Position numbers and translations under genes: made by a program. The notes below the pieces were generated by a model. The model ran no database searches, was not told the DNA's origin, and worked only from the letters and a program-made list of their open reading frames with translations. DNA of 64,000 nt from assembly GCF_000319365.1 (NCBI RefSeq), contig NC_021007.1:124001-188000 (forward strand), read 5' to 3'. Below, in pieces: positions 14,154-19,869 of this stretch. Each line of letters begins with the position of its first letter. Position 1 is the stretch's first letter. Source of the DNA: Candidatus Mycoplasma haematominutum 'Birmingham 1'. GTDB lineage: Bacteria; Bacillota_I; Bacilli_A; Mycoplasmatales; Mycoplasmoidaceae.

Positions 14154-15740
14154 TTAATAGTTTTGCTGTATTGCCGCAGATATCAGACTTGAAAATAAGG
14201 GTTCTGGAGATAAAGGTCGAGAATTAAATTCTGGATGGTACTGCACCCCTATAAAAAAAGGGTGCCCCTGCAATTCTACTCCCTCAGCAATGTTATCTGA
14301 TCAAGCAGTAACTTTTAGGGAAGATTTTTGAAAATTAGCCTCCTTTTGAGATAATTCCCAGTTAAATATATATCTATGTCGATGTCTCGCAACCTTTTCG
14401 GCCGAAGAGTATACTTTGTAAATTAGTGAATTTTCACTAAATTTAATAGTTTGGTCACCTATTCTCATTTCCCTGTTGGGTTTTCAGGAGGTAATTATTG
14501 GGTACTCAGCTGCAGAGTCAAACTCCAAACTGTTAGCTAGAGAAACATTTAACACATTTCTAAAAAATTCAATGATTGTTAACTGCATGCCTAAGCATAG
14601 CGCCAAGAATGGAATTCTTTTTTCTCTAGCATATTTAATTGCAAGAAATATTCCATCTAAAGATTTATGACCAAATCCTGGAGGAATACAAATTATCTGA
14701 GCTGATTTCAACTGACTTTCTGTAGTGAGTAAATCAGATTGAATAATTTCTATATTCAATTTAGCTGAAAGCGAACTTGCAGCAAATTCTAGAGATTGAA
14801 TAATGGAATAATATGATTCCCTCGAGGCAGAATATTTTCCCACTATGATTACATTTATAGTTTTTGAATGCTTGGACTGAAGTTGGGCATTAAAAGACTC
14901 TCAGGAAGCTATTAATTGAGTATTAGTTTCTCGTTTTTCCAATTGAAGTAAAGTTGACAGTTTAGAAAACAATTTTTCCTTTTTATAAAGATAATTGGGT
15001 ATTTCATAAATATTTAACTGATATGGAGCTGAAACTATTCTCTCACCAGGTATTGAGGGAAAATTTTGACTTATTTTGGTGAGCTCAGCCTCCGTTAATA
15101 CTGACTCTCCCTTAATAATTAGTAGATCAGGATTTATTCCTACTTCCTTTAAAAGAGATACTGAATGTTGAATGGGCTTTGTTTTAATTTCTCCATTGTG
15201 ATTTAAAGTCAAGGCAGGAGCCACATGTATGAAAATCATATCACTGTTTTCTTTTCGGGCTTTCAATTGAGAAGCAGCTATTAAAAACGGTTTCTGCTCT
15301 ATATCAAAAACAGTCCCTCCTAACTCTATTAGTAAAACGTCTGTATTTTGAGACTCAAAATGATTTATTTTAGAGATAATTTCTTGCACTAAGTGAGGAA
15401 CTACCTGCACAGTTTTTCCCTGAAATTCACCCCTCCTTTCTTTTTCGAGTAACTCATAGTAAATTTTTCCAGAGGTATAGCATGATTGAGAGCTTAATTC
15501 TAGATCCAAAAATCGCTCATAATGTCCCAAATCTAAATCAGTTTCTTCACCATCTTTAGTAACAAAAACTTCTCCATGCTGCAATGGGGATAAAAATCGC
15601 GAATTGTAATTTAAATAGGGATCAAATTTCAGTACATTACAGCTGAATCCCTCAAACTGAAGCACCTTACCTATTGAAGAGAGAAGGACTCCCTTTCCCA
15701 GTGAAGAATATACACCACCAGTCAGGAAAATTATCTTCAT
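14154..15740 (-). CDS. pyrG: CTP synthase
   Basis: Makes CTP from UTP using glutamine or ammonia. Residues 1-270 are the amidoligase domain: [38 protein letters not shown]. The C-terminal glutaminase domain has the nucleophile in CLGMQL and the partner residues in [10 protein letters not shown]. Length is 528 residues, near the usual 535. The ATG overlaps or abuts the Obg-like gene (stop at 15747-15749). Some substrate-loop residues differ from the consensus (NSRF for DPGT), so the enzyme is diverged but looks complete. Confidence 0.95.
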
Positions 15741-15746
15741 TTAGAT

Positions 15747-16907
15747 TTAGTAAATTTCAGTTTCAAGCGCACCGACCTTAAGCTTTTCCCCCCTTTTCCC
15801 CCCTGTTCTTTTTAACTGTTTCATAATTTCCTCTAACTTAACTTTTTGCTTCAACCTCTCTATATTATGTATTGTTGTCTGGGGAATCCTTTCCCCTCAA
15901 TAGGTGATGGATTGCGAATTAACCTCTCATCCTTCAGGAGTCTTTAAAACTTTTAGTTCTCCCTTTTCAGGAAAGAGTTCATCTGAATATTCCACATATT
16001 CAGCGTCTGTGTTATTCTCGGGAGATAATGCAGGAAGAGGAGAAGGAAGGGAAGCGACAAATTCAACTAATTTTTTACTCATAATTTGTTTTTGAAGTTC
16101 CTCCAGGGGGAGGGGCCATACAACTCCATATCTAGATAATATTTTTTCCCCTTTATATTCAGAGTTTTCTGACTGTATCAATATTGTTAACACTTTAAAT
16201 TTGTTAAATTTTTCTAAAAAATTTTGAGCTAACTTTATATTTTTGCTATCTTCTGATTTCAAGAGAAATATACAAGTTGCACAAAATTTTATGGCTTCTG
16301 GATAATTATTTAAGTCAGCGCTGGAAAGCCTTAAAAATTCAATCTTTGAGCTGTATAAAACGGATTTTTCAAAAATATCAGTAGGCTTACATTTGGTATC
16401 TAAAAAATTTCAAAATGCGATTAACACTGAATTTTCAACTTTTAAGAATACCTCTTTTTTTGCTCCTTTCTCTCCCAATTCATATAGTCAGGGAGATTGC
16501 AGTTTAGCATTTCTAAAAGATTTGTTGCCCCTGCCTCCTCGGCCCCCCTTACATGCCAAGTAAGTTTCTCCCGCTCTTTTTAAATGCGATAATCTCATTT
16601 TTTTAGTTGGATCGTAGATTTCAGTAGAGGGGGGAACTTTGAGAATTAAATGCGCAGCAGATTTTCCGTTTTTATTATTTTTTTGACCATTTTCCCCCCT
16701 TAAAGCTTTTAATTTTTGAGGTTGAATGTGTGCAAAATCTAATATTTTGGGTTCTACCTGAAAAATTATTGAAGCACCATTTCCCCCATCCCCTCCAGCG
16801 GGACCCATTCTGGAGTTATATCGATTTCTAGCTCAGGAGATAATTCCATCCCCTCCAGCTCCCGATTCTAATGTAAGTTTTAAATATCAAATACCTCTAG
16901 TTTCCAG
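15747..16907 (-). CDS. Obg-like protein with degenerate GTPase domain
   Basis: 386-residue relative of ObgE/CgtA, the GTPase that binds the 50S subunit. The glycine-rich N-terminal Obg domain is clear (SGAGGDGIISWARNRY, GPAGGDGGNGASIIF, CKGGRGGRGNKSFRNAK). A C-terminal OCT-like domain ends KRGEKLKVGALETEIY. Between them, where GFPNAGKST, DLPG and NKxD are expected, there is only a segment of about 115 residues with none of these motifs. The start is unusual: no ATG/GTG/TTG precedes the domain; CTG at 16905-16907 is the best guess. It sits in the translation operon downstream of a membrane protein gene. Confidence 0.82.
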
Positions 16908-16922
16908 TTGAAAATGATTGTG

Positions 16923-17783
16923 TTATTTCTGTGCAGAATCGCTTTGATATTTAAGGTCCACTATGCCTCATCCTCCAGTTAGCAATATGTATTGATAAAA
17001 CAAAAAGTTAAAAAACGCCAGTAAAAATAGTATTCCCGCAGCGAGGCTACATAACACAATAAAATAGTGAAAATATTTCGACTGATAGAGATAGTTAATG
17101 TTTATAAAGTAAAAAATTCCCAGCACAATGTAGGGAAATACTAGAGCTATTCCAGCTAGAATGCAGAGAATCAACATCGCCTCAAGTCATGAGGAGAAAA
17201 AATGAGAATGAGCACTAATACTTTTAATTGACTCCCAATTGGACAAAAAAGTTCTCGCCACCAGTAGTCCGATAATCAGCATCAATAAAGCGCCAGCGCC
17301 TCTAAGTTCAAATTTTTTAAGTTTTGCAAAATTTCCAGGAATTTTCAATGTAATATCCACAAAGGCATTAAACTCTCCCCAAGAAGCCTTAAGCTCTTTC
17401 TTGTAGTAGGCAAGATAGGTATAGAAATATCTGTAGTCAGCACCTAAAAAAGGAATATTCATTGTCATCAATTCCCCCTTTTTACGAATACTCAATCTGA
17501 ATAAGGCATTCATTTTTTTCCTAAATTCTCTCCTACTATGATAAGCTTCTAGCGCCTTTTCAAGGCTTTTTGTGATAGAATCTTTGATCCCCTCTTCTGA
17601 TTGAAGCCTCTGATAGAGCGTTTTAGAGGGAGTAGGATTCTTTTCGAAAAATTCTTCTCGAGAATGTACAAAAATATCAGAGATAAATGATTTCTCACTA
17701 CTGGTACTCTCAAAATTTTTGTGCATAAATAATTGAGCCAACTCTTGATCCTCAATTTGTTCCAAAGTTAACTTTTCAGACAT
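16923..17783 (-). CDS. Hypothetical membrane protein (3 TM) between rbfA and obg-like gene
   Basis: 286 residues. A hydrophilic, charged N-terminal half of about 160 residues is followed by three hydrophobic segments: LLMLIIGLLVA, MLILCILAGIALVFPYIVLG and YFIVLCSLAAGILFLLAFF. No known motif is recognised. ATG start 5 bases after the rbfA stop, so it is probably co-transcribed with the ribosome-maturation genes. The large cytoplasmic part could bind a protein partner, but that is a guess. Confidence 0.75.
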
Positions 17784-18141: not shown

Positions 18142-19869
18142 TTAAACTTTTCGTTCAATTATCTCATAGCTTTCTATTACATCATCAAGTTCAACATTAT
18201 TTCAATTCGTTAATACAATCCCACATTCTTGTCCCTCCAACGCCTCTTTTACCTCAAAAGTCTCTATTTTGAAAGATTTAATAGTAGTTTTAGTGAGTAA
18301 ATTTCCCTCTCGAATTAACTTGACTTTATGATTCAATTGAATTTTTCCCGACAGTACAGAGCACCCCGCAATAGTACCAATTCTGGAGTGAGATCACAAT
18401 CGAATAACCTTACATCTTCCTAAAATTTTTTCAATTTTCTCAACAATTCTATGCTTTTCTATATGATCTAAAATCTTTTCCTCTAGTTCATAAATTGATC
18501 GGATGGACCAAACAGGAATATTCAAAAAGTTCAATTGATCCTCTATTTTCCTGGAAATTTTTTGCTCAAAATTAATAATTATTGCCTTTTTAATAGAAGC
18601 TTGTTTTAAATCAGTTTCATTAATTTCTCCAGCCCCCATCGAAATTACTGAATAGTTAAATCTACCGAGAAATGCTTGTATAGCTTCAGAAGAGCCGCAA
18701 ACTCTACTCTTCACAATAAAAGAAAAATGAGTAGGATTTTCCCTTTCAGCTAATTCACTTCCCTCTTTAAAGTGGAAGGAGTCTTCACCTTCCCCCAATT
18801 CTCTGTAGTTTTGTAGCGCTTGCTCTTTGGAGACAAAAGAGAAAAAACGAGTACCGGGGGGAGGAAGAGTTTCAAAGCCAGAAATAGTCGCAGGAGTAGC
18901 GGGCGCCAATTTTGTGATTTTTTCTCTTCCTTCTCCTAGAATAGCCTTGATCTTACAGTACACTTTTTTTCCTGAAATGTAATCTCCAGCCGTTAGAGTA
19001 CCCCTAATGGTTATGATCTCAGCAATGGCTCCAAGCCCTCTTTCCATTCGCGATTCCAAGATAATTCCAATGGCAGGAGGAGAGAGTGTGGTACAGTATT
19101 CCTCCATTTCTGCAAGCAATTGGATAGTATCTAACAATTCTTCCACTCCAGCACCAGTCTTCGCAGAACCTTTTACTAACAATACATCTCCACCCCATTC
19201 TTCTAGTTCAATTCCCTCTCCCGTGAGTTGCTGTTTCAAATTTTCGATAGAGTGATCACCCCTGTCTATCTTATTGACGAAAATAATTAACTTGAGATTA
19301 TTTGATTTGTAGTATTCAATTACCTCCTTAGTTTGAGATTGCACACCATCCTCTATTGAAATTACAAGCACGATTACATCTGCAATTACCCCACCAATGT
19401 TTCTTAATTTTTGAAAAATTTCATGACCTGGAGTATCTAAAAAGGTAATAAATGCATCCTTGAACTTAATTTGGTAGGAAGAAATATGTTGAGTGATTCT
19501 CGCATATTCTCTTTCTGCAACATTTGTTTTTCTAATCCGATCTAATAATGTAGTTTTTCCATGATTTACATGACCCATCACAGCTACTACTGGGATTTTT
19601 TTCACTAACTCAACCGAATTATTTTCTCTTCCTGATAAAAGCTCAGACTCTAGCTGAAATTTACTCAATCTTTCCCTTTCTTCCTTCAAAAATTTCAATC
19701 CAAATTCATCGCACAATTCTCTACAGTATTTTTCATTTAGTCAGGAATTAAGTGTCATCTCCTTTCCCCTGAGAAAGAAATACTTAATAATTTCAACTGG
19801 CGGAATTTGAGTCGTCTCAGAGAAATATTTAACTGAAACTGCTTTATTTTGGTATTTAAATTCAGTCAT
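18142..19869 (-). CDS. infB: Translation initiation factor IF-2
   Basis: 575 residues, short compared with E. coli (890) and typical of Mollicutes; the long N-terminal region is reduced to about 110 residues. G1 is VMGHVNHGKTTLL (Asn in place of the usual Asp), G3 FLDTPGHEIF, G4 FVNKIDRGD, G5 VKGSAKTGAGVEELL. Domains II and the C-terminal fMet-tRNA binding domain follow, ending ELDDVIESYEIIERKV. ATG at 19867-19869. Operon partner of nusA and rbfA. Confidence 0.95.

Follow-up and report, generated by a model that had tools for sequence, protein, structure and literature searches.

Obg (Obg/ObgE/CgtA; TIGR02729) hydrolyses GTP slowly, yet no bacterium tested can do without it (PMC6982127). The N-terminal domain of the E. 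coli protein mimics a tRNA, reaches into the peptidyl-transferase centre and is regarded as the chief seat of activity; double mutation of K27 and K31 nearly abolished 50S binding, and R136/R139 in loop 3 are also needed (PMC4028186). The Obg domain of human GTPBP5 is placed likewise in the peptidyl-transferase centre (PMC8209036). Moreover, nucleotide-binding-defective ObgE alleles were reported to be viable as the sole copy in E. coli (PMC6982127). In eukaryotes, Tsr1 is a pseudo-GTPase in ribosome assembly. The p190RhoGAP pseudoGTPase domains and degenerate septins derive from G domains that lost nucleotide binding or catalysis and were retained for a structural or interaction role, as is proposed for the protein described here (PMC5593906, PMC10731463). 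All these eukaryotic examples differ from it in belonging to other GTPase families. With regard to mollicutes, the relevant passages of a 2014 survey of translation genes give ObgE as ubiquitous and a GTPase, M. suis included, and EngB as missing only in M. suis, and these passages do not mention motif loss in Obg (PMC4014445). In the full-text literature, subscription papers aside, we found no description of a bacterial Obg pseudo-GTPase or of Obg motif loss in hemoplasmas or M. suis.

We analysed a window of 64,000 nucleotides from the genome of 'Candidatus Mycoplasma haematominutum' Birmingham 1, which is one contig of 513,880 bp with obg present as the sole copy (Table 1). An earlier note on this window had described an Obg-like protein that keeps the glycine-rich Obg domain and an OCT-like C-terminus but has lost the P-loop, DxxG and NKxD, and both halves of this description were borne out. 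The motif scan found none of GxxxxGK[ST], DxPG and [NT]KxD in the haematominutum Obg, and searches with Pfam and NCBIfam models gave no G-domain match between the Obg domain and the OCT. By contrast, PF01018 matched residues 15-162 with 137.6 bits, far over its cut-off of 27, and was above the cut-off in all congeners too. The full-length NCBIfam Obg models matched within the Obg part of the protein alone, and the score lies under the curated cut-off of every such model matched; the TIGR02729 equivalog, for example, gave 137.7 bits versus a curated cut-off of 280.25, covering only model positions 6-154 of 329. The OCT is found in many Firmicutes and mollicute Obgs and is not universal. Its single-sequence scores are slightly below threshold here (TIGR03595, 36.2 vs 37.65; PF09269, 22.7 bits vs 27), but against the C-terminal parts of intact mollicute Obgs a profile-profile comparison by hhalign gave E 8.6e-22.

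Table 1. Features of the obg locus, with positions in the window.
Feature	Position	Strand	Basis and remarks
pyrG (CTP synthase), downstream of obg	14154..15740	-	ORF and synteny; named from sequence
obg CDS (putative pseudo-GTPase)	15747..16892	-	table 4 (TGA=W), from the ATT aligned with orthologue starts
obg stop TAA	15747-15749	-	
OCT (Obg C-terminal) domain	15759..15953	-	residues 324-388, TIGR03595; well conserved across the genus
Degenerate G-domain segment (putative)	15999..16457	-	without G1, G3, G4; switch I region deleted (motif scan and alignment)
Glycine-rich Obg domain (PF01018)	16437..16883	-	E = 2.2e-41 in genome search; 137.6 bits
286-aa protein (ORF286), immediately upstream of obg	16923..17783	-	ORF; tblastn match in 9/9 hemoplasma loci
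infB (IF2), neighbouring GTPase as internal control	18142..19869	-	PF01926 E 6.5e-16

The obg frame (15747-16907, minus strand) is uninterrupted solely in translation table 4, in which TGA encodes Trp; the standard code is ruled out by six in-frame TGA stops, and the neighbouring genes all likewise require TGA=Trp. There is no ATG, GTG or TTG in register with the starts of the orthologues. The in-register codon is ATT at 16890-16892, and an alternative start upstream in the same frame is CTG at 16905-16907, where the earlier note had set the boundary. Either an unusual start codon or an error in the sequence at this place is indicated. An AGAGG is located very close upstream of the in-register ATT (minus strand, 16890-16907).

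The part between the two conserved domains differs clearly from that of the described Obgs. The Obg domain is similar to that of Obgs of solved structure (PDB 1lnz, 1udx, 5m04, 4csu; hmmsearch E down to 1.6e-35), whereas G1, G3, G4 and switch I are lacking; alignment with intact Obgs shows replacement or deletion at the P-loop, along the switch I stretch and at the glycine of DxPG. The G-like segment has about 152 aa versus 188 aa in M. haemofelis counted in the same way, and across the seven species of the genus the middle segment has 134-161 aa versus about 188 aa in M. haemofelis. The earlier estimate of about 115 residues was thus too small for the whole segment, though roughly right when the linkers are excluded. 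Comparison of the seven middle segments with intact G domains by hhalign gave a probability of 1.7% and did not link the two. A profile of the seven middles gave intact G domains a mean of 5.3 bits versus -0.4 bits for shuffled sequences, a weak residual similarity, and the three sequences of the haemofelis group each outscored 100 of 100 shuffles, with in-register alignments around the fourth strand and the helix after it. This similarity and the place between the Obg domain and the OCT lend moderate support to an origin of the middle segment from a G domain.

Two AlphaFold models, built on alignments of five and two sequences, add little certainty about the middle segment. Only the Obg domain is confident in the first, with the middle below pLDDT 50; the second has the middle mostly at pLDDT of about 37-66 and no confident Obg domain. 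Foldseek matches were due to the Obg domain in one model and uninterpretable in the other. Strands alternate with helices in the middle segment of both low-confidence models. This pattern, together with purifying selection on the middle in closer pairs of species (see below), would suit a protein that still binds a nucleotide or another ligand in a non-canonical pocket and is a different type of switch. Pseudo-GTPases elsewhere sometimes retain nucleotide binding. We regard such a pocket as unlikely here, however, given that none of the seven species retains G1, G3 or G4, that the switch I region is deleted, and that the few invariant columns of the middle (P180, I183, F184, C214 and F242 in the numbering of the window protein) leave little for a binding site.

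The comparison with the Obgs of relatives supports a lineage-wide loss of the GTPase motifs, as distinct from an oddity of one genome. We searched 59 genomes (haematominutum and its relatives) whole for Obg and translated 60 Obgs with TGA=W. Obg was found in all 59 and was single-copy in all but one. G1, G3 and G4 are missing, and the switch I region is deleted, in every one of the seven species that make up the genus, known as the suis group of the hemoplasmas (mycoplasmas that parasitise blood). The hemoplasma genomes compared include M. suis, M. wenyonii, 'Ca. M. haemolamae', M. parvum, M. haemofelis and M. haemocanis. Another suis-group genome (G003) is presumably that of M. ovis. In contrast, the P-loop (G1) and DxPG are retained in 53/53 other Obgs, including those of M. 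haemofelis and M. haemocanis of the sister hemoplasma group, and a recognisable [NT]KxD is present in all but four of these 53. The seven degenerate Obgs are monophyletic with support of 1.0 in a tree made from the Obg domain only. Moreover, the order infB - rbfA-like gene - ORF286 - obg - pyrG is common to the suis and haemofelis groups, so that the suis-group Obg is a true orthologue; it shares the OCT with the intact mollicute Obgs and the genomic position with the intact Obgs of the haemofelis group. Whole-genome searches revealed no second PF01018 match in haematominutum and no second, intact obg in its six congeners.

The same pattern was sought in wider samples. Among 298 genomes of the order, the Obg-domain-only pattern was limited to the seven congeners; the other 12 genomes below the cut-off comprised two fragmented assemblies in which the Obg hit is truncated (with a visible P-loop in one of these hits) and ten without a PF01018 match. 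In a sample of 120 genomes of the phylum, the Obg cut-off was missed only by haematominutum and by one 50-contig genome that has no full Obg hit. Separately, PF01018 found no match in two members of genus g44 in the same order, G278 (a single contig of 806,532 bp, 97% complete) and G233 (99% complete), and a protein search with the Obg domain of G295 from the same genus did not match either of them. The obg gene may have been lost altogether in G278 and G233.

The frames of the degenerate Obgs are open over the full length in all seven species. In closer pairs, the omega values (Nei-Gojobori count) lay at 0.04-0.21 in the Obg domain, at 0.18-0.36 in the middle segment and at 0.02-0.06 in the OCT; these are given only where dS was estimable, and are rough, indicative values with dS near saturation. 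The haematominutum protein is about 49-58% identical to the other six in the Obg domain and OCT and about 20% in the middle, which diverges fast, with about 20% identity between distant species. Invariant residues persist throughout the Obg domain and OCT. To judge from these comparisons, the suis-group Obg is under purifying selection and not decaying. The idea of a decaying pseudogene leaving a shrinking genome would suit the very small genome, the variable length and sequence of the middle segment, and the two complete or near-complete members of the order that seem to have no obg. However, it is already largely refuted by the full-length open frames, the intact synteny, omega well under 1 in all three parts of the protein in closer pairs and the invariant residues of the flanking domains, and we consider it extremely improbable. 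A single loss in the suis-group ancestor explains the pattern, and it is ancient and fixed rather than ongoing decay, because the seven Obgs form one clade, lie in the same gene order, have open frames and are subject to purifying selection. The pseudo-GTPase reading proposed in the earlier note is supported, in that neither a second intact obg nor decay of this copy was found.

To get insights into the context of the loss, we compared other GTPases and related factors. Eight PF01926 matches were found in the genome, none of them at obg; they were assigned from sequence to Der (two domains), YchF, IF2, RbgA, LepA, EF-G and EF-Tu. All these proteins have a P-loop, and in the neighbouring infB both the P-loop (GHVNHGKT) and NKID are intact. 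There is therefore no general erosion of GTPases. Transfer of the G domain of Obg to a separate gene was also rejected, as none of the eight matches is an orphan. One could suppose that Der/EngA, RbgA or YchF partners with the degenerate Obg and supplies a GTP-dependent step in trans, since Der and RbgA remain with intact P-loops, and E. coli EngA and ObgE jointly drive late 50S assembly in vitro (PMC13278734). On the other hand, the eight matches include no split-off or orphan G domain of the Obg type, and the two E. coli proteins are believed to work at separate steps, perhaps without binding at the same time (PMC13278734), so this arrangement seems very unlikely to us.

RelA/SpoT is missing from all ten hemoplasmas and present in three other family members. 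Because its absence extends to hemoplasmas with intact Obg, Obg had probably already ceased to serve in alarmone sensing before its GTPase motifs were lost. A second 50S-assembly GTPase, YsxC/EngB, gave no match above the cut-off in precisely those seven of the 13 genomes compared that carry the degenerate Obg, and is present in the six with intact Obg (haemofelis group and other family members). Since this is a single evolutionary event, the joint loss of YsxC/EngB and the GTPase motifs is a coincidence on one branch and no proof of a link. RsfS, considered as a lost docking partner, was uninformative, being absent in 13/13 genomes including those with intact Obg.

The Obg domain itself retains its glycine pattern, and the positions of E. 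coli K27 and K31 in loop 1 carry basic residues, R or K, in 7/7 suis-group proteins. The loop-3 positions R136/R139 are Q and W/Q in the suis group; they are not both retained in the intact mollicute relatives compared either, and the intact hemoplasma Obgs vary there. The departure of loop 3 from E. coli and the accompanying loss of EngB could be taken to mean that the protein has been repurposed away from the ribosome, with Obg-independent 50S assembly in this group. We find this highly improbable in view of the retained glycine pattern and basic loop-1 residues, and of a gene that still has infB, the rbfA-like gene and nusA in its neighbourhood.

Taken together, an Obg orthologue was probably converted once, in the suis-group ancestor, into a nucleotide-independent pseudo-GTPase that still docks at the 50S subunit. 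By descent the protein is an Obg; as a functional class it would not count as a GTPase. From the retained domains and the literature (PMC4028186, PMC6982127), we infer capping or chaperoning of the 50S subunit. The Obg domain, as a tRNA mimic, would enter the peptidyl-transferase centre on its A-site side in late 50S particles and serve there as a folding placeholder and an anti-association cap, while the shrunken middle segment would be a spacer or docking piece that replaces the switch. Release would take place through competition or 50S maturation and not through GTP hydrolysis. The earlier loss of (p)ppGpp synthesis in hemoplasmas may have taken away one reason for nucleotide sensing.

This pseudo-GTPase reading agrees with the viability reported for nucleotide-binding-defective ObgE in E. 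coli (PMC6982127), which is an Obg unable to bind nucleotide, as is predicted for the suis-group proteins. The E. coli alleles are single laboratory substitutions in an otherwise complete G domain, whereas the loss in the suis group is natural, ancient and extensive. We lean, somewhat less firmly, towards the broader view that in the whole lineage an Obg naturally free of nucleotide carries out an Obg-dependent step in 50S assembly, and that the core function of Obg is structural with the GTP switch as a dispensable regulatory layer. If true, evolution would here have given its first proof of a structural core function for the universal GTPase Obg, as the suis-group lineage would over a long evolutionary time have kept the essential ribosome-docking function apart from the switch. 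It would also qualify the picture of the minimal translation apparatus in which, in the relevant passages of the 2014 survey, the M. suis Obg is counted as a normal ribosome-assembly GTPase (PMC4014445). Moreover, the suis-group proteins would be ready-made GTP-free Obgs for binding, assembly and cryo-EM work.

Finally, two observations concern the genes on either side of obg. The C-terminal half of the 286-aa protein is apparently membrane-spanning, with apparent transmembrane helices, and the identity of this protein is 55-62% in the suis group and about 25% in the haemofelis group. On the other side, obg and pyrG are adjacent in five of the seven species and separated by a gap of about 1.1 kb in M. 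wenyonii and one further species (G002), in which something seems to have been inserted between the two genes.
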